Positions 13,382 through 59,740 of a stretch of 64,000 nt of DNA are shown piece after piece. Below the pieces are notes generated by a model. It worked only from the letters and a program-made list of their open reading frames with translations. It had not been told where the DNA came from and did no database searches. The position numbers and the translations under genes are program-made. The stretch is from Siphonodentalium dalli (lineage: Eukaryota; Mollusca; Scaphopoda; Gadilida; Siphonodentaliidae), in NCBI GenBank assembly GCA_032622095.1, contig CP136063.1, forward strand, positions 73,881,980 through 73,945,979. The letters are read 5' to 3'. The stretch's first letter is position 1; every line of letters begins with the position of its first letter.

Positions 13382-16300
13382 CTGAATTTAGATATATACA
13401 ATGCCTGATGACCACCGTTGATGTGGCAGACCAACATGTAGTGCAGTGTTTAACATCATAAATATCTATCCGCATGCTTTAAATGTCCAACACTAATCTC
13501 ACAGAACAGATCAATGAACCTGCCGTGGGTGTACATTGAGGTATTTGACTCCTGAAGAAAGTTTTACAAGAATTTGACTGTAATGCCCCAGCATTGTCAC
13601 ATGTTACCCTCAAATAACAACAAACGACATAAGAGAGGGTAAGTTTGAATATCGATAGACTTCGTAGTCTAATGTCGCCATGCTGTATTATACCATAAGC
13701 GTGACGGAGTACATACAGTAATGTGACGTATATATCCATTTCCAAAAAAAACTGCCGTACAATTACATGTCGTTGTTGTCAGTTTTTTTAGCGACAACTA
13801 GCTTTAGCTCATCATTAGCTCATTACGCCCTCTATATGATGTATTTTGACAGACTGCTTGTGGCCTGCCAGTGGAGATATGAAGTAAATATGACTGAATA
13901 AGTACTTCGGTGTTTGCGTACTTATTTCTATTTCAGAGTTAGCATCTCGTCGTAATATATATTCCTGTATCGCTTTGCGGTTATCTCGGCGTGCGTCTCG
14001 ATATGATTTATTGTTAGCCGCGATAATATTTTCATGCTCAGAAGTGCTTACTGAGTTATTGGAATGGGAATTCTCGCGTTAACCCTAATTATCGCACTTC
14101 GCGCTGTGTGTTTCTGTTTTGTTTCACCTGTTCCATTGCTACTTGAACATCTTTCATTTATTTTCATGTATCATAAATCGAAATGCTATCTACTAATATA
14201 TTGCATGGGGATTTGAGGATGGTATAAGAAATTTAATTCACGCATGAACCCTTCGAGCTGTTTATTTATATGATGATGATTGTTTATTTGTATAATATTT
14301 ACAAGCTTATGACAATGGTGATAATAAACAAACAAAAATGATATTATACAGGAGCGACATGGCCCAGATGGGCCGTCTTCCTGTCGCCCCTACGTATACA
14401 AACATGAAGTGGCAACTAATGAAGTGAAATGATAATGAAAAGGATAGAATGTAGTTCATAATAGACAAATAAAGTATCCAAACCACTTATGTGATGCATC
14501 TGCATGTATATGTGTTACTACATATGTATTGGTTGTATTCATGGGCTTATATTAAATCTGTCACTAATGATGGGGGTATGGCCGGGGCTGTTTCGAATAT
14601 TTACTGGTTAAGAAAATAATGGCTTCCGATTATCAAATGCATTGAGAGATCGTTGTTGCTGAAGCAAGTATTTGTTTCAGGTTATCGAGGAATTCATATA
14701 TCGATATGTAGGAAGCTATTTCTCGTTTCGTCCCGCCAAAATGTTAAGGTGAACATACCAGACTGCATTACAATGACTACAATGATGGGAGGATTAGGGG
14801 TCAATGCTCTATTAAGCCACTTTACAGTCTTGACAAAATGAGTTGTTGCATTTAACTGTTGTTGCATATTGCGATAAATATTTATTTTTCAATTCTTTTT
14901 TAAATCTATTTCGAAATCTGATATTTTTGAGATTTTTATCCAATGAGTTCCATATGCACGGAAACGCGTGTTTGGGTAATATAGAAGTAAAAGTCGTTCT
15001 CGGGGTTACTGCTTTCAAATTTCCAGCTTGTCGAGTATTAGCCTTTGTATATTCAAACGAATTATCAAATGATTTCGGAAGATTTCCTTTTGTCCAATCA
15101 AATACAATTGTAGCCGATTGTAACCGATACATGTCATAACATTTAAGAATCTTTTCTTTGCGAAATATGGGCTCTGTGTGGCTTCTATACGTTCTGTTTG
15201 CCATGATACGGATGGCTTTTTTCTGTTGTTTGAAAATAATATTTCCAGTGTCAGCATGACCCCAAATTGGCAACCCATATATGAGATGACTGTGGATTAG
15301 AGAAAAGCATAAGGTTTTCAAACAGTTTTTGGGAAGTATACGTTTAACCTTATTGATGCAGTACATTGCATTTGATATCCTTGTTTTTATCATTGATATG
15401 TGACATTTGAAGGTGAGATTTTCATCAATATTAATTCCGAGGAATTTCATATATTGTTCCGGTCTAACGTTTCCAATTCGTGTTAGTGGCTCGTTGTTCA
15501 GTTTTATTTTAAGAATATTCCATTTAAAGTCATTATTAGTTGGGTGTAGTAACATGTACTTACTTTTTAATATATTAATAACCAATTTATTGCTACAACA
15601 CCAATTGTGAACTTTTTTCAATTCTGAATTAACTTGTTTTTCATCGGTGTTTAACATGTTATCTAACATCGTTTAGTGCGACAAATATCGGCATGTTATC
15701 TAAATGAATTAGGATGGTAATTATAAACCAGTTCCACGTTAATTCGTTATGTTTATAAATATTGACGTTTAGTGAACTTTGTTCTTGGTCTTTAAACTTT
15801 TTTTTCTCATTTCTGTGCATGCGGAATGTACCTCAGCTATGACTAGAGATGTTATAAACAATTAAGAAATGTTCCAACACTAACCCTAATTCATATTGGT
15901 TGTTTAACATACAATGTGACCTTATTTCAAACATCATTTTTATTTCTTTGTACGCAGCATATATCATAATGCTATATGATTTGCACACTGTTCAGAAATT
16001 AACCTCCCTGCGACCATGTTTTAGTTGATCCTCATGGGGGCATATTTCAATTAGTCCTCATTTGACCATATTTTAATTTACCCTCATGTGACTATAGTAT
16101 ATTAACCCCATGGGACCGTAGTTTAATCAACACTGATGACACCATATTTTAATTTTAATTAACCCTATAACGGGACCCAATTTTAACTTTAATTAACCCT
16201 CATGTTACCATATTTTAATTGACCATCATGGGACCATATTTCGATTAACCCAAATGGGTCCATACAGTTATTAACCCTCATCAGACCATATTTTAATTTA

Positions 16301-40347: not shown

Positions 40348-41317
40348 CTAAAAATATTGATAATATCACCGGTAATATTATGTCAGGCATGCATAAACGT
40401 GATCATAATCACTAGCTCATGCTATAACAAGAAAACCCTAGTCAGAAATGGTAACGCCCTCAAGATCATAGTATTACCCATATATACAATATAACAATTT
40501 GATTGTGGTGATTGTGAAAAATCTGTATATAGGTAACGCGTATGTAATTGATTATATGTGATATTTTTTTTCCAATTTCTTTGAAATAGTGGTCTGAATA
40601 GCGCATGAAATAGCATGCAGAATAATAATCGGGCAAAATTTGCGATCTTCGTAACATGATTCAAGTACGCAATTACCGAGTACGTTTCTAATCACATTTA
40701 GTATCCAATTACGCAAATACCGAGAATGTTTTACTCACATTTAGTCCACCACATCCTGCAACAGGGTCAGACATACTTGCCAATACACACCCTAGGAGGG
40801 CGTAATGCTGATCTAAGAATGGCCTCAGATAATCCACTGCTGATATTACCTCCCATAAGGATTAATTAAAATACATGTGGGTGATTCTCGCTTATGGGGA
40901 ACAATTGATGAAGCAGACATCTAGCATAAAATGTGTGCATGTTGCCATGAAATAATGCATATAGGAATTTCAGGTACAGTGTGCGACGTCAAAAAAATAA
41001 AATATAATTGCCCGATAGTCAATCCCCCAAAGACCAGAGCAGCTTCAGTATGCAGAATCGATACCTACGTTACTGAAGCCAAGAATACATTCAGGTGTTT
41101 CAACACGATTTGCCATGACTAAATAAGTCAGTGAGCTATTCGCACCGCCTCTGATTACAGCGCTCGGTACAAACTGTCAGAAATCGTTTGAGTTGCAACT
41201 GTCAGAAATCTTACATCAGAATTCAGTCCAGTTTATACCTTGAAGCTAGAATGTGGATACCTACGTTACCACCGAGGACAACGAGGTGTAATTTGTAACA
41301 CAATAAATACATGTCTA
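40348..41317. repeat. Mosaic repeat X-related sequence (copy C) left of the DIRS-group element
   Basis: The reverse complement of 40650-40860 matches 16430-16650 (ggtatttgcgtaatt, gaggccattctt). It is followed by gggtgattctcgcttatggg (40871-40890), found also in reverse complement at 53955-53985, and by GATACCTACGTTAC motifs at 41060 and 41256. No gene recognised. Confidence 0.55.
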
Positions 41318-41365
41318 CGCTAGACTAGATACAACTAAAACATATATAGCAGATAGCGTGCGTCT
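41318..41365 (-). repeat. Split direct repeat B2 (3' terminal)
   Basis: The 48-bp block cgctagactagatacaacta to gatagcgtgcgtct is identical to 42001-42048. It forms the 3' end of the DIRS-group element. Confidence 0.88.
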
Positions 41366-41760
41366 TTATTGGTATTTAGATATGTACAGTCATACACAAA
41401 CCGGAAGCCGTGGAACGATTCAGAGTTTATCGACTAAACCAAATTAATAAATTAAGCAAAAAGACATGCTTCCATGTGGCATACACATTATGTTATAAAC
41501 AATCTAAACTCTGATACAGTGTTACATATAACATACACAAAAATAACCCAGCGGCTCCCGGCTAACAAAATTCTACACTTAACAACTTGCGTTAAACCAG
41601 AGATAAAACCCTTTGGGCAAAACGCTCTGGAAGCATTGTATGTCAAGTGCTATACATCTTAATTTTCGAAAATGTTATATGACGTTTTGACATGTCATCT
41701 TAAATACATCCAATCTTATATTAATTGTTATGCCCAGTTTTCACAAAAACTGTGCTGGAA

Positions 41761-42000
41761 ATTTGGCGAAATACACCTGTTCAGTCTGGAAGACGCTGCT
41801 AAAGTGACTCAGTTTACTGATCTCATTAACTCACTCACTCTACTACGTCACAATAGGCTGTCATTGTGACACCCTTTAATTGAATTATTCTGGCTTATAA
41901 TACAACAGCGTGCTAACGCCCGTTGAGTTGTAATCAGCGTATACCGCTTTAGACAACAGTTTTGTTACTATTCTACGAAACGTCCAAAACATATAGTCTA
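41761..42000 (-). repeat. Split direct repeat A2 (internal)
   Basis: 240 bp matching 46225-46464 throughout by eye. It directly abuts B1, which creates the junction that mirrors the element's joined termini. Confidence 0.9.
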
Positions 42001-42048
42001 CGCTAGACTAGATACAACTAAAACATATATAGCAGATAGCGTGCGTCT
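42001..42048 (-). repeat. Split direct repeat B1 (internal)
   Basis: 48-bp copy of the terminal B2, located downstream of the recombinase gene and directly next to A2. Confidence 0.88.
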
Positions 42049-42309
42049 GCTAAAACAAATTGTTCAAAAGAATGTCCAGGTGTCGTTTGAAATCTGTCAA
42101 ATTCCGTGTGAATGTCTCATAATGAATAATATTATATCATGGATGACATGTGTATATATGATCATAACTACACTAAATGCATATGTAGGCAATGCGTTTG
42201 ATATAAAAATACAATTGTTAGCTAATGCTAATCGTCTTCCTCTTAAATTTTGCTATAATGAATGTTGAACATGCAATTTACGTAATTTACAAATATCATG
42301 TTAAATATT

Positions 42310-43319
42310 TTACAATTTCAAACTTTTTGAAACACTTAATCTGGATTCCACCGAATCCACCACATATCCATCCTTTGCGGATTCAGAACGCCATCTCCCA
42401 TGGCGCTTCCAACAACGCTCGTTGACTCCGGCTTGAGCGGCTTCGGTAGCTCCCCCAGCTCTCATAGAATGGAGCCCGAGCTTAACACTCCCATCACATA
42501 CTTCCTTCAATCGCGCGACAATACATTCTCGGGCTCTTGTATAACTTAAAGGCTTGTTTTTGTAAATTAATTTGCGTGATTCTTTTGATCCAAAAATGGG
42601 TCTGAATAAATACCCGTCTGAATTGACATCCAAATTTGCTAAACTAATATATCTATTGATCATTTTCACTGGGCATGCGACCGTTTCTCCTTTGGCAATA
42701 AGTATTTCATCGCCTTGCCTATACTGATCTGTTTTACTTTTTTCAATTTTGATTGATAAATGATCAGAATCTATTTCTAAATTATTGCATTTCAAATTTT
42801 GTAATTCAGAAAATCTCATAAAACCACTAAAACCGAGAACAATCATAGCCAAATCTCTCACAACAGGTAAATCTACTGAATTCTCATATTTTTGACATAT
42901 TGCAATAACATCTTCAGAATAAACAGGGTCCTTTTTTGTAACTTTTTTGGAGGCGACTCTTTTGGCCGCTTCTACGATGTTGCTAACTAAACCGTTCGAT
43001 GTTGGATCAGAAAATCCATGAAGCTCGTGAACCCATTTGAGAGAATATTTGTGAGCTGACACAACACTATGTGAGCTTCCTTTGTCTATCAAATCAGTCA
43101 GAAACAGTGCCACGTTTATGGAGTCCGCGGGAAGTTCGTTGCATCCAATGTCACGAGCAAAGCCTTTCCATTTTGAAAAATTGTGGTAATACTTTTTCAC
43201 TGTATTGTCCGCTCTCGATTTGAGTAACAAATCGGTCATCTTGCCAGTTAAGTCATTAGCTCTGTTTGAACCCACCAAACTGGACTGGTTTACAGCTGAT
43301 TGTATCTGTCTTGTTAAAC
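42310..43319 (-). CDS. Tyrosine recombinase of the DIRS-group element
   Basis: It would insert the element's circular DNA by site-specific recombination, in place of a DDE integrase. From the SSLVG leucine at 43278 the frame has 322 codons. An N-terminal helical core-binding domain (about 1-110, NTVKKYYHNFSKWKGF) precedes a catalytic domain with all the key residues: R155 in GFMRFSEL, K180, H270 and R273 in LHSMRAGG, H293 in RHGRW and Y305 in DGYV. The frame has no ATG at that start; it runs upstream to an acceptor-like catttatag at 43320, so translation probably depends on splicing from ORF1. It ends at TAA 42310, about 260 bp before B1. No lesion seen. Confidence 0.86.
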
Positions 43320-43458
43320 CTATAAATGAAATTTAACATAATTATATATGTGCTTAATAGCTATGGTAAAATGTCCTTAATATATATATGCATCGCCCCC
43401 ATTGAGAACGGTAATGTTCTCCGGCCAAAAATGCCGTTGTCTCCCCTCCCCGGAGAAA

Positions 43459-46224
43459 CTACGCACAGACCTCCGAGGCCATCACTGGCGATGCAAATTT
43501 CCGCTCATTTATTTCGTTTTCAAAGAGTGGCCAAAATGGTGCTGACTTCCAAATCGGAAATACTAAAGTGGCCTCACAGTTATCTCTGTGAACTTTTCTC
43601 AGAACTTCAGTTACTTTTTTCGGAGGTGGAACAATCCAGTTGTTTTCCCCGCTCCAACTTTGTTTCATTGCGTCCACACCCTCTGTACCCGGACACCACC
43701 ACCTTGAGTTGAACCTATTCAACTGCGCATTATAATCTGTTGAAAATCTGTCTACCGAATGAGGGCCCCAAACATTATCTAGCTTCATGAAAATGTTTTC
43801 TGAAATTTTCCAATCGTCAGAGTCAAATCTGCGACTCAGCGCGTCCGCGCTCTCGTTGAATTCCCTGGGAATCCATTCGGGTACCAACGCGATTCTGTGC
43901 TCGGAGCACGTCGCGTCTATATCGATAGCAACCCTGTGTAAATGCTCTTTATTGCTACCCTTTTTTATCACGCTCACTGTGGCTTTGTTATCTGTGTATA
44001 ATTTGTATGTCCCGCCTGACATTATTTCCACTTTCGATTTGCAAAATCGGTTCACGGCTTCTAACTCTCTCCACGTAGAGCTTCTGTCAGCTTCGGAAGC
44101 TGACCAGGTCCCGAAGACCTCTAGGCCCGGGGCCTCATTTAGAAAAGCATTGTTATGCGATTCGCTAGCACCTGGTGCTATCCTTGGGCGTCCTGAACGC
44201 TCTCCACGACCTTGGGCTACACGATTTAGCGCTTCTTCTGGTCGCTTTGCAATACATGCACTGTGCTGTGTGTATGCGTCCATGTTTTCGGAACAAACTG
44301 ATTCTAAAATAATGAATCCGCCGTAACCGGTTCCCGACGCGTCCGTGTAAACGCTACCCGCGATCAAGTCGCGTTCCGACTTAAGCAAGTCCTGACCATT
44401 CACGCTTTCGATATTTCTCGCCCAATACTCGAGTTCTCGTCGCGCATCTTCGCTTATATGCACCGATGCATTCCAACTCGTTTTATCGGACAGACATATA
44501 TGTAAAAATCTGGTTTTTAAACCAATTTGTGCGTTTATTGCACCGTTCATGGACGACAATTGGCCTAAAATGCCTGCCAAAGCTCTAGCGGAAACTTTGC
44601 CACCATTAGCGCTAATGGCGTTACTCAACTTGTTTATTGCTCCGCAAAAAACCTCAATTCTCTCGTGAGAAACACTGACTGTACCGGTTTTGAAATCCCA
44701 TTCTAAGCCCAGCCATATGATGTTCTGGGTAGGAATCCAATGCGATTTTTCTACCGAAGATACAAAACCGAACTTTCTAATATCGTTTTGTATTCGCTTG
44801 CTTAAAGTTAACGCCGCTTCGAAATTGGACGCGCCCGCTAATCCGTCGTCTAAATACATTACTACTTTGCAACCGTCGCTTCTCCATGATTTCAACATCA
44901 CTCTGGTGATTTTCGTGAATAACTGGGCTGCACTCGAAATTCCGAAAGGCAAAACATTAAAAACAAAATATGTACATATACACTGCCCTTCATATATCCA
45001 GCTGAAACCCAAGTACTTTCTGTACATCGGATCTATACACATATGATGGTATGCAGATTCTAAATCAAAATCAAACACGTAATCATTAATTTCAAATATC
45101 TGCCTTGCAACTGACCCGTCCTCAAGTCGGAATTTATATTTTGCAAGATGCTCGTTTATATGTCTACAGTCCAAGACTAATCTTTTCTTGCCATTTCTGT
45201 TTATGGCAACTGTTAATGGGTTGACAACTGTCAGAATATAATCGACTACAGAAACACAACCTTTATCTACTAATGTTTTGATTGCCTGATTTACAAAATC
45301 AGCGTTATCCCGGGAAGATTTGTTATTATCCAAAACTTTGGCTGTTGGCTCATCAACAAAAGGTAAACGGTACCCGCTATTTATGACAGAAATTATGTAA
45401 TCTGAAGCCCCTGCTTCCTCCCAAATTTTGACACAACCCTTTATATCTCCCACGCCAGTAATTTGCTTGTGGCGAACGTCTTGTTGTATAAGCCCATGGG
45501 ACTCTACGTTAAGCTCTTGCATTGAGCTTCTTTCCCGAACAGCCCCTCCGGCCTGAGACCCTAAAGAATTAAAACTAATACTTATCTTAGGTCTCTGTGG
45601 CCCCATGGGGCCTCTTTTTGGACACTCGAATTTCCAGTGGCCAGCTTCTAGGCAGAGAAAACAGCTCCCTGGTTTCCTCCCTCCTGGTGTGGAACCTGAT
45701 GCCATCCTGGATGACGACACAGAAGATGAAACAGGTACACTATATGGTACATGTCGAACTTTTTTCTTCTTCTCCTTTTCCTTCAGCTTGGCTTGACTCA
45801 TGGCCTTCCTAATCCTTTTCTCGTCATCGGAATCGTCAGCTAGGCTGTGCCTCTGATACTCGTCTACCACTTTCCATCCCAAATCCGAAGAATCAGCTAA
45901 TTTTATCAGCTTCTGTCTATCTTTTATTAAGTCCAAACCTTCTCGCAATGCGCTTAAAGCATCCTCTGTATTCGGCTCGCTCTGTTCCATGTGGTGTTTG
46001 GCTTGTGCCATCCTGTTTTGAACTTCAGAATTTAACTTGAACTGCTCTTCATGTGCACGTTTTTTAAATTTGTATGTTTCTGTGTTCGACGTTTGCATCT
46101 GTCGTTGACTGGAAACAAGCGTGCTAAAGTTCGTAGTTATCACTTTCCCCAATTTCTCTAACATGTCGTCTTGTGATTTTTTAATCGCGTCTTGTATCCT
46201 TCTTTCTATTTGTGTTTCGTCCAT
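43459..46224 (-). CDS. Gag-RT-RNase H polyprotein of the DIRS-group element
   Basis: An open frame of 921 codons with an ATG abutting repeat A1. Residues 1-160 are charged and helical, Gag-like. A CCHC zinc knuckle lies at 188-201 (CFLCLEAGHWKFEC). The RT spans about 300-510 with LVLDCRHIN, FDFDLESAYHHM, LPFGISSA and the active-site YLDD at 457-460. RNase H follows at about 622-800 with D628 (YTDAS), E720 (WRELE), D745 (YTDN) and D794 (ADALS). A stretch of about 60 residues (645-705) appears inserted between the first two RNase H acidic residues. A conserved-looking tail (820-905, PGTEGVDAMKQSW and ENNWIVPPP) follows. The protein would copy the RNA and remove it. It is uninterrupted, so the element may have been recently active. 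Confidence 0.88.
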   Translation of the reverse strand: MDETQIERRIQDAIKKSQDDMLEKLGKVITTNFSTLVSSQRQMQTSNTETYKFKKRAHEEQFKLNSEVQNRMAQAKHHMEQSEPNTEDALSALREGLDLIKDRQKLIKLADSSDLGWKVVDEYQRHSLADDSDDEKRIRKAMSQAKLKEKEKKKKVRHVPYSVPVSSSVSSSRMASGSTPGGRKPGSCFLCLEAGHWKFECPKRGPMGPQRPKISISFNSLGSQAGGAVRERSSMQELNVESHGLIQQDVRHKQITGVGDIKGCVKIWEEAGASDYIISVINSGYRLPFVDEPTAKVLDNNKSSRDNADFVNQAIKTLVDKGCVSVVDYILTVVNPLTVAINRNGKKRLVLDCRHINEHLAKYKFRLEDGSVARQIFEINDYVFDFDLESAYHHMCIDPMYRKYLGFSWIYEGQCICTYFVFNVLPFGISSAAQLFTKITRVMLKSWRSDGCKVVMYLDDGLAGASNFEAALTLSKRIQNDIRKFGFVSSVEKSHWIPTQNIIWLGLEWDFKTGTVSVSHERIEVFCGAINKLSNAISANGGKVSARALAGILGQLSSMNGAINAQIGLKTRFLHICLSDKTSWNASVHISEDARRELEYWARNIESVNGQDLLKSERDLIAGSVYTDASGTGYGGFIILESVCSENMDAYTQHSACIAKRPEEALNRVAQGRGERSGRPRIAPGASESHNNAFLNEAPGLEVFGTWSASEADRSSTWRELEAVNRFCKSKVEIMSGGTYKLYTDNKATVSVIKKGSNKEHLHRVAIDIDATCSEHRIALVPEWIPREFNESADALSRRFDSDDWKISENIFMKLDNVWGPHSVDRFSTDYNAQLNRFNSRWWCPGTEGVDAMKQSWSGENNWIVPPPKKVTEVLRKVHRDNCEATLVFPIWKSAPFWPLFENEINERKFASPVMASEVCA

Positions 46225-46464
46225 ATTTGGCGAAATACACCTGTTCAGTCTGGAAGACGCTGCTAAAGTGACTCAGTTTACTGATCTCATTAACTCACTC
46301 ACTCTACTACGTCACAATAGGCTGTCATTGTGACACCCTTTAATTGAATTATTCTGGCTTATAATACAACAGCGTGCTAACGCCCGTTGAGTTGTAATCA
46401 GCGTATACCGCTTTAGACAACAGTTTTGTTACTATTCTACGAAACGTCCAAAACATATAGTCTA
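46225..46464 (-). repeat. Split direct repeat A1 (5' terminal)
   Basis: 240 bp matching 41761-42000, from atttggcgaaatac to catatagtcta. It is the 5' end of the DIRS-group element, probably with the promoter, and ends at the ORF1 start. Confidence 0.9.
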
Positions 46465-47154
46465 CCACCATACACAAATACCCACATGTAATTGTTTTTC
46501 GGGAGGGCTGATGAAATATAACAATTGATATTCCACATTGTGTGTGTTACAATATATATGTCAGGAAACCAATGGTTGTAAAACAATCGATACCTACGTT
46601 ACCATGGTATTATGACACAACGAACTACATATTTTAATTTTATTTGTGTTACATATGATCTGGTACCTATCAAGGATCATAATGAGTGGTGGCTTGCTTT
46701 TGACATACAATTGTAGTATTTGCTGTACCCAGATGAAGTGTGAAATCGATGCCTACGTTACCGATACCTACGTTACCAAATTTTAAAGTTTTTTTGTTAG
46801 GTCGCCAAAAACGTTCCATTTTTCGCGTACATCAGATTAATTAAAGGCTGCACGTAAATAAATGTGAAATTTAGCACAACATATCAGCAAACAATATATA
46901 CATGAGGTTTGAGATGAATCAATCAAGTTTGATTTAAATAGAACTAGCATATCTGGATAACGGTTCTGTTTTGCCAGTGTAGATCAAGAACTAATAGTCA
47001 GTCCGCTGTTATAGGTCTGTGGGAATCAAACTTACATTTATGTCAAATGAGAAAACATCAGTGCATGCATGTCTTCTTGGTTCAGTTTAATGGTATTGTC
47101 ACTTTAGCACGATTAAAATGTGTTTATATAAACAAAAGTTGTACATTATGCAGG
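46465..47154. other. Repeat X-related flank of the DIRS-group element, no gene
   Basis: Contains three GATACCTACGTTACC-type motifs (46589, 46748 with one change, 46763). Otherwise AT-rich with no coding signal. Confidence 0.5.
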
Positions 47155-50524: not shown

Positions 50525-53290
50525 CGACCTGTTCTTTCTCTCCGAGTGCAAGAAGAATAAACTCTTACCGAAAGGACTCGTTATAAAGAATCCCTTGCAG
50601 AACACATGTCGCAGTGAGTATTCAGACGTACTCTGCAACTGTACCAGCATTCGAATTCTAAACCATCTTATCGACCTGATATATGCAAAAAAGTCCCACA
50701 TAGAACATCAGATAAAGGACTTCCTTTCCAAAAATGTCAACGCTGATAAAAAATGTCACGAAAAATGTTACAGAGATAACCTGAACGTTTATATGACACG
50801 AAAGAAGAAAACACTCAACAATCTACTCGACATGCATTCTAAGTCTGAGGACAAACGTGATTCATCTCATCGTCAATCCAACATAATTAATTTATCTGAC
50901 TATGAACTTAATGCTTCTGAAGAATCTGTACTAGAACGCGGACTATCGTTTTGCCCGACTGTCAAATTGGACAAGGTCTAAACTTGCGCGGACTTGGAGG
51001 AATATTTCCGAAGACTTCGTTTGAAAGAATACTTCCATGGCCGCGATGAGCCTGAGGTTTGCGGATCTTATAATCAACAGAAACGGTCAAAGTTGACCCC
51101 TCCTACCGGACGTAATGTTAAGTTAGATACTTACATCGATCTTTTTCGGAACAGAGTTAAACGCGACATTCTGTCGAAGAACAAAAAACTACTGTACAAT
51201 TTAAAACCATCAGAGCGGCGTGCTATTTCCACCCTCCGCGGTAATCCAAACATTGTGATAAAACCTGCGGATAAAGGCGGAGCGACAGTAGTGCTAAACA
51301 AAACTGATTATGTCAATGAAGCTCAACGTCAACTTTCCGACACAGAGTATTACGAGCGCCTCCAAACCGACCCGACAACCGCCTTCCAGACCGAGCTCGG
51401 AGAACTTCTTGATGAGATGTCCAAGGCTGATCGAAATCTGATCACTCCTTTAATACCAAGTGATCCTCGACCAGGAATTCTGTATCTCCTCCCGAAGATC
51501 CACAAACATAATGTACCTGGCCGACCTATTGTATCTGGAATAGGAACTCTATCCGAGAACATGGCCAAACTTGTTGACGAAGTATTAAAACCCATCGTTC
51601 AGAACACTCCTAGTTTTGTAAAGGATACAACAGACTTCCTCAGGAAAATCTCCGATATTGGACCGCTCAACGAGGATAATTTTCTGGTTACATTGGACGT
51701 TGTATCCTTATATACGAACATCCCACACGATAGCGGATTGAAAGCAGTGGAACGGAGCTTGATCGATTCGGGTGATAATCTAGTTTCTAACAGAGCTACT
51801 GTTGATCTCTGTTCCTTCATACTAAAACATAATTATTTTACGTTTAACAACGAAATGTGGCTCCAGAAAATGGGAACCAGCATGGGATCGCCCATAGGAC
51901 CTCAGTATAGCAACATATTTATGTCCGACCTGGAGAAGAGATTTCTAGATTCACGTCGTAATAAACCCAAAGCATACTACCGATTCAAAGACGACGTATT
52001 TATGGTATGGGACCATGCATGGAGTTCGAGAGCTGGAGGAGTTTCTGCGTTATTTCAACAAGTGCGTGCCTTCAATTCAACTTAAACTGGAGTACTCTGA
52101 TCATCTGTAAATTTGCTTGATGTCACCGTCAACAGATGCGGAGACACTCTATCTACGACTGTTTACAGAAAACCTACAGACCGATATACATATCTCAACC
52201 CCGAATGTTTCCACCCGGATCATTGTAAACGATCCGTGATATTTAGTCAAAGTTTGCGATATAATCGGATCAATTCAGATAGTGATGTTCGCGACAACCA
52301 AATTTCTCAGCTATCGGCGGCGTTTCGGGGCCTTGGATACGATAAGAAGGTAATCGACAAACAGATCGACAAGGCGCGGTCGAAAGAGCGGAGTGAATTG
52401 ATGGAGAGTTCCTCAAAAGACTGATCGGATCATGTTCCATTGGTAGTAACTTACCATCCGGAATTAAACAAATTGCGTGGAATCGCGGCTGATCTGCAGA
52501 ATGTGCTGGCTGAAGATGACTATCTCAGTGATGTGTTCCCCAAGAGGCCAGTTCTTGCCATGCAACAGCTCCCGAACATCCGAAATAAGCTTGTGTCGAG
52601 CCGACTCACCGATGACACCCTGAATGGACGTGACAGCGGGACATTTCCATGTCATAGGCCTAGGTGTGGCTTGTGCAAACTCATCTCTAATGATGTCATG
52701 TACACTAAGGATGGGAAGCGATTCACACCAAAAGAAAAACATTCGTGTACGTCGGCCGGGGTGATATACTACATGACATGTGTTCGTTGCCCCGACATGC
52801 ATTATATTGGTGCGACTGGCAATTCTCTAAGCATTAGAGTTAATGGCCATCGACAGGATATCAGGAAACATGATGTGGGATTACCATATGCCCGCCACTT
52901 CAACTTACCTGACCATTCAGTTAAAGTCATTCGTCTACAGGTATTGTGTGGTGGTCTGCCCGTGCGTGAGGACCACAGAATCAAAGAGCAACAAATGATA
53001 GACGCATTCGGGAGCCTGCATCTGGGCATCAATAAAGATGCTGACTTTATGGCCAAATGGTTATAACTTACTAGATATTATATTGCGCGCCATTTTTATG
53101 TCAGCAGTGATTACGTCACATTACGCGCCATTGCTATTACGTTGGATCTTGTATAATTATATAACTGTGTAACGTTGTATTATATTCATTGTGAGTGAAC
53201 TTGAGAAAGGCGAAAGCCGAAAGCTTGTTCGTATATAAATTGCAAAGGTCTTAAAGGTGTTATTTCACAATCCATCATCATCTGACTATC
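50522..53290 (+). mobile_element. Penelope-like element with RT and GIY-YIG endonuclease
   Basis: One long ORF is recognisable from about 50525 (SECKKNKLLPKGLVIKN) to 53066, encoding the Penelope RT and a C-terminal GIY-YIG endonuclease that would nick the target for priming. It is followed by a 3' region with the small hairpin aaggcgaaagccgaaagctt (about 53207-53226). No second terminal repeat copy is seen, so it is truncated or solo. The lesions are few: two stops and about two frameshifts. Confidence 0.85.
50525..53066 (+). pseudogene. Penelope-type RT-endonuclease polyprotein, lightly broken
   Basis: The N-terminal region (50525-50979) ends at an in-frame TAA inside LDKV*TCADLEEYF. The RT frame (50994-52085) has KPADKGGATVV, YLLPKIHKH, the first catalytic Asp in TLDVVSLYTNIP, GTSMGSPIGPQYSNIFM and FKDDVFMVW, where YxDD-type reads FKDD. 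Frame changes near 52015 and 52107 lead to LLDVTVN and KPTDRYTYLNPEC. A TGA at 52422 interrupts before LVVTYHPELN. The last part (52440-53066) has a Cys cluster (CHRPRCGLC) and the GIY-YIG nuclease (GVIYYMTC, HYIGATG, with R and H following). Resequencing errors aside, it is inactive. Confidence 0.85.
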
Positions 53291-55552: not shown

Positions 55553-58500
55553 ATGCGTCCTTTGAATACACCAAATAAAGATAATAGGCAAGAAAAATAT
55601 TGTGCTGTAAATCAGTATACAGGTGAATACAATTATGGTATTATGAGCACAAATGTTACTCATGAAAATTATTGTGTTGCAAATGATGCTAACATATGTA
55701 GCACCGATCATTATGTATCTGTTGTTAATGATAATTGTATGCCATATCATGCTTGCACTGATAATTACAATCATTGGATTCCAACACATGGTAAATATCG
55801 GAACATGAACATAGATTATGAAGATAACATAGACAAGATATAATAAACGCACACACAAACTCGTGTACTTCGATCACAGAAAACGACATACAACCGAAAC
55901 TCTCCGAAATTCTTGGTAACGTTAGGGAAACCCTGTATGGCTACATAGATGACCAACTTTTATTAGAACCGAACGAAATAACATCTGTGTCTCAAAAAAC
56001 GCCAACTGGCGATAACCAGTCGACACTTGTGAATGCCCCACAAAGTAACAAAACGGTATCTATTCTGTCTATTAACGTATGCGGTCTACGACAACAATTA
56101 CATTACCCTGAGTTTCAAAACATGTGCCAAAACCATGACATCATATGTTTCATGGAAACCAAGACTGATGACTGCGATGTACTTGAATTGCCTGGTTATA
56201 CATTCTACATGAAAAATAGACAGAAATTATCTAATAGCAGATCTGGAGGAATAGTGGTAGGAGTCCGGAATAATACCCAGATTAACGTCCGGGTTATCCC
56301 TACAAATTGTAAATTCGTTTCGTGGTTTGAGATACAAAGCCAATCATCGGGAAACCTGTTTAGATTGATATTGGGTGCAATATATATTCCACAAGAGAGC
56401 AGTAGATACACCTCAACCGATGAAATGGTACAAATAGAATCAGAATACCTTGATTTCATCGAACGATGGGACGATGTAAAAATCATATTAACTGGTGACT
56501 TTAATTCACGGGTCAGCACAGACATAGATTTTGCGATGATCGATGATGACGATCTACTTCTCCTACCATCGTGTATACTTAATCAAATATGCGAACATTT
56601 GGCACGGATAGATGATGCAGGATTGTCACGTGAGCGCACAAGTAAGGGCGAATCAAAGAATAGTTACGGTAACAAACTACTTGACTTTTGTAAACGTAAT
56701 ATATTCTCTATCCTTAACGGAAGAGTGGGACAAGATATAAATGTTGGAGCCCTGACGTGAAAAGATGCATCAGTGGTTGATTATTCTATATGCTCGTCAT
56801 CGACTATCCCTATCATCAGGGACTTTCACATACTGGATTACAATGCATAATTTTCCGACATACACGCTGGCATTGTCACTATCATATCATGGGACAAACC
56901 TGGTGAAACTTCTTACCCTAGTGTTCTTTCAAACGAGGTCAAAACGAAACGGGTTTGTAAACCTAAATGGAATAATATTAAAAGTGGCGACTTTGTTTGT
57001 AATCTAGACACGAGCTAAATTTCTTTAGTAACGTCGAAACTTGACAATCTAATGTCGTCTGAAACCGAAGTGGATGATAACTCTCGCGCAATAAATGAAA
57101 TTGTACAAGATATTACAAACATAGTGATAGGCTCACAAAACATTCGGTACCAGTGTATACTCATCGAACCGACCAAAAGCAACTCGTAAGCATCACAATA
57201 AACCATGGTTCACAGTTAACTGTAAAACAGCACGCAAAGAATACCGAAAATCTGAAAGAACTTTTAAATCTAAACGTGACGCTTTCTCGAAATGTTCGAT
57301 GAAGAGAGCAGCCAAAATGTACAAACGAGAAATGGACTCGGCTATTAAGAAACACAAAGAGGCAATGGATATGGAAATGTCAAATATGAAATCTCACAAC
57401 CCGCGCGACTTCTGGAAACTTTTAACAAGTAAAGAACCACAAAAGAATCATGTCATCCAAATGGCACCATTGACTGAATTCTTTCGCGATATAAACGCCG
57501 ATCATGTGCAGGATAAGCCCCCCGAAATTCCGAAACTTTCGGATCGTATGCCAACTGTTGAAACTTTAGATAAACCCATTAGTAAGACGGAAATAGAACT
57601 AGCACTAAAGTCCCTAAAGAATAATAAGTCGAGCGGACACGACAACATACTGAACGAGTATCTGAAAACATCATCCCCGCGACTGATGGAGATATATCAC
57701 AAACTTTTTAATAAGATTTTGGACTCGGGTTGTGTGCCAACTGAATGGTTAATTGGAACGATTGTACCTATATATAAAAATAAGGGTAACCCAAATGACC
57801 CCAAGAACTATAGGCCTATCACACTTCTGAGTTGTTTTGGTAAATTGTTCACAAAGATTCTGTCTAATAGACTAAATGAGTTTGTCGAAGATAATGATAT
57901 TCTGCTTCAGAATCAGACGGGCTTCCGCAGAAAATTTTCGACGTTAGACAACATTTTTATACTTCATATTTTGAGTGAATTGTCAAAAACATTGAAGGCA
58001 AGACTCATATGCGCTTTTATCGACTTTGAAAAAGCGTTCGATAAGGTGTGGCGCCCCGGGATATGGTCAAAACTACTGCAATATGGAATAAGTGGGAAAG
58101 TATTCAAAATAGTCACGAATATGTACAGAAATATAAAATCATGTATTCAGGTTAATGGGAATAAATCTGATTATTTCCCATGCCTTTCATGAGTCAGACA
58201 GGGTGATAACTTGTCCCCTTTATTATTCTCTCTTTCCTGAATGATCTTCAAACCTTTATGGATAATCAAAATGGAATAAGTCTTAACAAAATCGGAAGAG
58301 AATTGGAAACTGAACTGGGTATATTACTAGATCTATTCCTAATTTTATACGCAGACGATACAGTTATTTTAGCAGATAGCCCCAGAAAACTCCAGAAACA
58401 CCTTGACAAATTTAGCGAATATTGCGAAAAATGGAAACTGAAAGTTAATGTTGAAAAAACAAAAAATTTAGTCTTTTCAGGACGCAGCGTACCAAAAAAT

Positions 58501-59740
58501 CGTGTTTTCAAATATGATGGTAAAATCATTGGAAGGGTTCAGAACTTCACTTATTTTGAAAATAAACTTCAGACGATCTGGCTCTTTCGCGGCAGCAAAA
58601 ACAACTCTTGTAGAAAAGGCTAAAAAAAGCTATGTACGCATTAATTGGAAAGTCTAGAAAAAATTGCATGTCGATCAGAAATATGTTTTATCTCTTTGAT
58701 TCCTTGGTTTCGCCTATTGCTTTGTATGGATGTGAAATTTGGGGATTTGCTAACAACGATATAGTTGAAAACTTACACCGGAGATTCATTAAACACATCT
58801 TAAGATTAAAACCATCTACCCCGAATTACATGGTATATGGCGAAAGCGGACGGCTACCGCTTAGTATAATGATTAACACACGAATGATCAAGTTTTGGTG
58901 CAAAGTGGTAAACAACGAAGATCGCATATACAGCAAATTACTATATAAGTTAGCTTATAGCTTATCACATGAAAATGATTACTGTTTTCCATGGCTCCGT
59001 AAGATTTGCGACTTTATGCTTGATTCTAGTCAATCCCACTTATTGGCAGCTGATCGAATTCAGAATGTAGACCAGCTAACTGATTATGTAAGATGCTGCC
59101 TTATAGAAAAATTTGTTTCGAGTTGGTCGACAGACATTGATAACTCTAGCAAAGGTATCATTTATAGAATATACAAGCACAATTTCCACTTTGAAGAATA
59201 TCTAGATTGTAGTAATAGAAACGATCGAGAACTTTATGTAAATTCCGAACGTGCAACCACAAACTCCCAGTTGAGGTGGGTAGATGGCAAAACATTGATC
59301 TCGAAGATCGTATTTGCACGCTATGCTCTTCGACAAGAGTTGGCGATGAATTCCACTACTGGTTTAAGTGTGAACACTTTAATTTTCTTAAAAACCGCCT
59401 ACTGCCGAAAGAATTCACTGAAAGACCAAATGCTATAGTCATGAGCGAATTACTAAATACAAAAGACAAACATTTATATCGCCGGCTATGTATATTAATA
59501 CGACACATTATAAAGGAATTTAATTAGATTAGGAAGGTGTATTACCCATTGATTCAATGATATCATAAATGTGTATATTACAGCGATGTTACATGTATAT
59601 CTGATCATATGTCTTTTATATAACACTGCTATGTTCTAGATAAACCATGTTGACCACATGTATATATGTAAATATTGTACACATATAATTATCTCCATAC
59701 CTTTATTAAGGGAGTGAGAAATAAATGAATTGAATACCAA
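55553..59740 (+). mobile_element. Near full-length LINE (APE-type endonuclease, CR1/L2/Jockey-like)
   Basis: In order: a small upstream frame (55553-55843, Asn/Tyr-rich, perhaps an ORF1 remnant), ORF2 with endonuclease from about 55865, RT, and a C-terminal Cys/His region to 59527, then a 3' UTR ending near aataaatgaattgaat (about 59720). Several stops and shifts, mostly at 56758 and 57000-57300. Not active. Confidence 0.8.
55865..59527 (+). pseudogene. LINE ORF2 (endonuclease-RT), frameshifted
   Basis: The frame is open from about 55865, before the GTG at 55987. Endonuclease: SINVCGLRQQLHYPEF, FMETKTDD, LGAIYIPQESS and TGDFNSRV, to a TGA at 56758 and onward in frame (KDASVVDYSIC). A decayed linker (57000-57300) precedes the RT (57299-58192): PKNYRPITLLSCFGKLFTKI and AFIDFEKAFDKVW. 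Then a TGA at 58190, RQGDNLSPLLF, and the active-site ILYADDTVILA at about 58340-58375. After a shift at about 58570-58630 comes the C-terminal region (LYGCEIWGFAN, SGRLPLSIMINTRMIKFWCK), and a last shift near 59280 gives CTLCSSTRVGDEFHYWFKC, a Cys/His finger. At least two stops and four shifts. Confidence 0.82.

Follow-up and report, generated by a model that had tools for sequence, protein, structure and literature searches.

A PAT-like tyrosine-recombinase retrotransposon in the scaphopod Siphonodentalium dalli and the one-sided footprint of its integration

The window analysed here is a stretch of 64,000 nucleotides from Siphonodentalium dalli (C3:73881980-73945979 of a 2.23 Gb genome in 9 contigs). 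It contains an insertion at 41313-46459 with the minus strand as sense strand. These bounds were set by comparison with empty sites and lie about 5 nt away from those of a first-pass annotation made from the sequence alone. Direct repeats within 40800-47000 belong to only two families, a 241-nt pair A (41761-42001 and 46225-46465) and a 53-nt pair B (41313-41365 and 41996-42048). Alignment showed 100% identity within each pair, in agreement with the annotation, which had given the lengths as 240 and 48 bp. A and B repeats overlap by a 6-nt core, GTAGAC in element sense. The minus-strand order is A1, a gag-RT-RNase H frame, a tyrosine recombinase (YR) frame, B1, A2, a 395-nt spacer and B2. Since B1 and A2 share GTAGAC, the internal junction reads B-GTAGAC-A and, as annotated, reproduces the outer ends when these are joined. 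Inverted repeats of at least 30 nt were absent from 40800-47000.

The insertion lies in a high-copy host repeat (40900-41312 and 46466-46780), of which about 11 empty paralogues with 94-97% identity were present among the best 40 scored. The host repeat carries several copies of GATACCTACGTTACC. This motif occurs at 7 sites in the window, with none expected by chance, and is also found near 53.4-53.8 kb. Elsewhere in the window, an open frame of 367 aa (50982-52085) resembles by eye a Penelope-like reverse transcriptase, and long open frames at 55828-59438 and 14812-15672 look by eye like parts of a LINE endonuclease and reverse transcriptase.

Table 1. Features of the insertion in minus-strand order, with positions in the window.
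Feature	Position	Strand	Remark
Left (5') target core, 6 nt, GTAGAC	46460..46465	minus	Native to host repeat; 6/7 empty paralogous sites carry GTAGAC; varies in other copies
A1 repeat, 235 nt without core, 241 with core	46225..46459	minus	100% identical to A2
gag-RT-RNase H-(Dam-like) frame, counted from its first ATG, adjoining A1; C-terminus truncated	43459..46224	minus	RVT_1 3e-14; weak zinc knuckle, Dam 9e-4, RNase H
Site of private one-base deletion, shifts frame	43478..43481	minus	Frame kept here in 13 distinct other copies
Rest of Dam-like domain, now out of frame	43362..43478	minus	Conserved in distant subfamilies
Candidate 3' splice site TTTATAG|G, start of YR homology	43319..43326	minus	Pyrimidine-rich AG|G in several subfamilies; putative
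Tyrosine recombinase (YR) frame, 340 aa	42310..43332	minus	Phage_integrase above cut-off; Cre-like, phmmer 9e-7
B1 repeat, 47 nt without core	42002..42048	minus	100% identical to B2
Internal junction core GTAGAC between B1 and A2	41996..42001	minus	Constant in nearly all junctions read, this and sister subfamily
A2 repeat	41761..41995	minus	100% identical to A1
Spacer A2-B2, 395 nt	41366..41760	minus	Retained in solo copies
B2 repeat	41319..41365	minus	100% identical to B1
Right (3') end core GTAGAC, element-derived	41313..41318	minus	GTAGAC in all copies read bar few single-base decays

Two long frames are open on the minus strand, 43459-46272 (937 aa) and 42310-43332 (340 aa). The larger one encodes a Gag part with a CX2CX4HX4C zinc knuckle; its Pfam matches are RVT_1 (3e-14), weak zinc knuckles (zf-CCHC) and a weak RNase H, which is better matched in relatives. 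A Dam-like region follows the RNase H. It matches Pfam Dam with 9e-4, below the Pfam cut-off, and three relatives have scores of 2e-5 to 3e-3 at the expected place, always below this cut-off. The smaller frame matches Phage_integrase above the cut-off and is aligned to Cre by phmmer (9e-7) over R, HxxR, the H/W and the Y region. The catalytic motifs YLDD, D-E-D-D and HSMR...GY are visible. Both genes had been annotated as open with full catalytic sets; the open frames and the motifs are indeed present, but the larger frame is truncated. In several subfamilies, the YR homology starts without an ATG, directly at a pyrimidine-rich AG|G. This site is conserved between the window copy (43319-43326) and the corresponding position in L035, L055, L058 and L059. 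It points to YR expression from a spliced RNA, with a candidate acceptor at this position.

Reverse transcriptase and RNase H together with a tyrosine recombinase in place of a DDE integrase are the features of the DIRS order, and the two frames and the split repeats confirm the annotated DIRS group. The split direct repeats are arranged as A1-ORFs-B1-A2-B2, the PAT-like form. The Gag zinc finger, the same-strand YR and the internal repeats downstream of YR are those of the echinoderm form of Pat1-like elements. On the combination of gag zinc knuckle, weak Dam-like domain and direct split repeats, the element can be classified by structure as PAT-like, of the echinoderm-form Pat1-like type within the DIRS group. 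It very probably represents, with the integration model developed below as part of the overall explanation, one insertion of a PAT-like tyrosine-recombinase retrotransposon at 41313-46459. The element itself is ordinary, a recent and slightly damaged member of an already known family. The footprint of its integration is more interesting than the activity that had been claimed for it.

No differences were counted between the repeats of the window copy (234 A sites and 47 B sites), whereas the A pairs of three older full copies have 3 to 7. Together with the empty paralogues of the site, which are 94-97% identical, this points to a recent insertion and agrees with the annotated young age. Gene conversion could be partly responsible for the identity of the repeats instead of youth. 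The nearest relatives are about 1-3% different, with a synonymous divergence of about 2-3% and a dN/dS against the closest relatives of mostly 0.3-0.6. In the gag-pol protein search, the window copy was the only one with an uninterrupted 937-aa match. Relatives extend ~39 residues past the end of its frame, and subfamilies that are only about 50% identical conserve this stretch. A one-base deletion, private to the window copy and absent from 13 distinct other copies, puts these last ~39 residues of the conserved Dam-like domain out of frame. The missing base could also be an assembly error. As read, the copy appears damaged in the Dam-like domain, and the annotated structural completeness is unsupported. 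An active element would have all frames intact and recent daughters; here a frame is shifted, and genome searches with A, YR, the spacer end and gag-pol found neither a near-identical full copy nor a near-identical daughter. An intact, currently active source element would agree with the absence of repeat differences, the two open long frames and the empty paralogues, but the loss of the conserved domain end and the lack of near-identical daughters in these searches make it quite improbable. The annotated possible activity is weakened and, as stated, unsupported. Of the proposed assembly search, the near-identical copies were not found and the unoccupied paralogous sites were.

The same four queries identified relatives in the genome, and all counts are lower bounds. 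There are at least dozens, so the window element is not a single decayed copy. They comprise full copies, YR-deleted copies, solo A-spacer-B copies and broken pieces. The YR frame is kept open in many subfamilies. At least four copies share one deletion of ~906 bp which removes most of YR (L003, L004, L005 and L006, with L008, L012, L013 and L015). Four YR-deleted copies have no differences within their own A or B pairs and differ mutually at 10 to 26 of 2189 sites, in a stretch that includes some flank. This would indicate recent movement of copies that lack their own YR, presumably by means of YR in trans. A loss of YR by splicing was considered and rejected: the deletion begins after the splice acceptor and has 1 bp shared at the joint. 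It looks like a single simple deletion. The solo copies are scattered over several places in the A-spacer-B tree. These several origins make repeated formation by A1 x A2 recombination likelier and speak against a single mobile short lineage. The A1 x A2 recombination may be host-made or YR-driven. Two A copies of the sister subfamily, L108 and L114 (G000:C6:76639970-76641390), lie 1.2 kb apart with left flank and core alike and seem to have arisen by tandem duplication from a solo insertion.

The ends of the copies have a characteristic pattern. In an initial set of 19 copies, the six bases left of A1 vary by copy, and the right end and the internal junction have GTAGAC. In an extended set of 29 left ends of the window subfamily, with segmental duplicates counted once, GTAGAC is present only in the window copy. 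A sister subfamily with 67% YR identity has GTAGAC at none of 19 left ends and always at the internal junction. Across the window and sister subfamilies, the internal junction has GTAGAC nearly everywhere, with one decayed exception, L034. In a third subfamily (50-54% YR identity), left cores are variable as well, and internal and right ends finish in GGAAGAC.

Empty sites were sought by searching the joined flanks against the genome, and paralogues were fetched for seven insertions. In 7/7, the empty site runs from left flank through left core into right flank, and no base is gained or lost at the joint. Individual paralogues are one core base off, one of seven for the window and two of three for L027. 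The net gain per insertion over these empty sites is the element plus GTAGAC, and neither a duplication nor a loss of target was seen at the seven insertions. The left core belongs to the target; the core at the right end and the core at the internal junction belong to the element. This polarity, target core left and element core right, was found in all 22 informative copies, for which both ends were read and the core differs within positions 4-6. In the window copy, the two matching ends look like a 6-bp target-site duplication. They are a coincidence of the target: GTAGAC already belongs to the host repeat, being native in six of seven paralogues, and other copies are without matching ends.

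Identity of the target with the element junction is not required, since left cores vary and these variants are kept by the empty sites. The target is not random. Of the 48 distinct left cores of the first two subfamilies, 42 have A at position 5 and 28 have GA at positions 4-5 (p = 1e-22), with no preference at position 1. The target bases beside the crossover favour (G/T)A(A/C), and sites resemble NNN(G/T)A(A/C). Preferences in the right flank are weak.

The following route is consistent with these footprints. The element RNA would be copied by its own reverse transcriptase and RNase H, and the internal B1-GTAGAC-A2 junction would serve as template for joining the cDNA ends into a circle with B-GTAGAC-A. 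The constant core of the internal junction and the target-derived left core indicate that the circle junction is a copy of B1-A2 and not of the old left end, which would carry the bases of the old target along. The footprints show that the six bases of the target stay on the A1 side during integration and the GTAGAC of the element lands on the B2 side. The point of resolution of the crossover is therefore always where core position 6 meets A1. In tyrosine recombinases, the first bases of the cleaved strand swap and pair with the partner. Homology may be tested only over the 2-3 bases beside the crossover point, and the (G/T)A(A/C) preference left of the joint is the expected trace of a pairing test at that edge. 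One strand exchange would fix the outcome, by replicative or strongly biased resolution and not by a random two-strand exchange. Later A1 x A2 recombination may give rise to the solo A-spacer-B copies.

The single exchange point follows from the polarity: random resolution would give both orientations, whereas 22/22 copies have the same one. From the sequences we infer a single strand exchange with replicative resolution or a strictly biased resolution. This rests on the polarity, and repair always favouring one strand would give the same pattern. We tentatively propose, as a possibility short of an even chance, that the YR retrotransposons in general integrate by a single strand exchange at one core edge, with a Holliday junction resolved by replication or in a strictly biased way, perhaps because the cDNA circle is single-stranded at that moment, and that the core asymmetry is general in the order. 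A folded single-stranded junction as in attC was considered for the B1-A2 site. This site can form a weak 7-bp hairpin (z -1.8 and -2.7) that is almost missing from the sister subfamily and could not be seen in the third. Because of this lack of conservation, attC-like folding is unsupported.

An ordinary two-strand tyrosine recombination with a 6- or 3-bp core, after which replication or mismatch repair would resolve the heteroduplex cores at both ends, as expected for Tn916-like elements, is unlikely, though it fares best among the other explanations of the footprint. The integrases of Tn1549 and Tn916 need only 1-2 matching bases beside the cut and no core homology (PMC5871717), and a matching test of this kind agrees with the preference seen at core positions 4-6. 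Random resolution predicts the reverse polarity in about half of the insertions; it was found in 0/22 informative copies, with a chance of about 2e-7. The same footprint without duplication would also arise if host end-joining inserted a linear DNA TATATG...GTAGAC at a blunt break and YR worked on circles alone or had no part in the process. End-joining would produce variable joints, and the exact joints in 7/7 empty-site comparisons, the strong target motif adjoining the joint and the YR frame kept open in many subfamilies render it very unlikely. Recombination only with an identical short target, the model stated for DIRS1-like elements with a 3-bp junction and no duplication (PMC3266345), is suggested by GTAGAC at both ends of the window copy and is hardly credible for this family, in which 1/48 distinct left cores of two subfamilies is GTAGAC, the last three bases, too, are different in most, non-matching cores are present in the empty sites and the GTAGAC of the window is native to the host repeat.

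The value of the family lies in its many copies with empty paralogous sites. Integration in the DIRS order has until now been mostly inferred from element ends. Here footprints are read directly, with no junction identity, a short match on one side and a one-sided outcome, and they bear on whether a second strand exchange occurs. The core asymmetry leaves a simple signature in the sequence, and any genome that contains such elements can be examined for it. The recent YR-deleted insertions suggest in addition that YR works in trans.

Echinoderm-form Pat1-like elements are known from sea urchin, Lottia, Nematostella, Romanomermis and Volvox (PMC4157794). The window element shares with them the Gag zinc knuckle, the RT-RNase H followed by a putative Dam-like region, the same-strand YR and the split direct repeats A1-ORFs-B1A2-B2, of which the internal ones lie downstream of YR. 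It differs in that its Dam-like match is weak and, in this copy, truncated, and its placement with PAT is by structure and not by tree. An asymmetric target and element core is not described for PAT-like elements in the part of PMC4157794 compared here.

With DIRS1-like elements, which have RT-RH-MT plus YR, the element has in common RT-RH with a putative MT region, YR, an internal junction that would template the circle and the absence of target duplication (PMC3266345). DIRS1-like elements differ by inverted terminal repeats and internal complementary regions (PMC3266345), and a DIRS1-like identity was rejected by the absence of such inverted repeats from the locus. Their integration was described as needing an identical 3-bp sequence (PMC3266345). 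Table 3 of that study was re-read: where the ends differ, the junction matches the start in 7/8 clear cases. This hints at a pattern compatible with the one-sided rule. Ngaro elements share the split direct repeats in the same order (PMC8547959, PMC9210276), and isolated A-B repeats like solo LTRs were reported for them (PMC8547959). A methyltransferase-like region is absent in Ngaro (PMC8547959, PMC9210276). The Dam-like region of the window copy and its relatives, weak and below the Pfam cut-off, would argue against Ngaro.

Outside the retrotransposons, Tn916 and Tn1549 also use a YR to integrate a circle with almost no core homology and a short match beside the crossover (PMC5871717). They are bacterial, DNA-only and process their cores via heteroduplex, whereas the window family is strictly one-sided (PMC5871717 for the transposons). 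Integron attC x attI recombination shares a short matching triplet at one crossover and a one-sided resolution after a single exchange (PMC4792948). It acts on folded single-stranded sites (PMC4792948), unlike the junction here with its hairpin unconserved in sister subfamilies. If a single exchange at one core edge is true, the integration of these retrotransposons would be the parallel, in eukaryotes, to that of integron cassettes.
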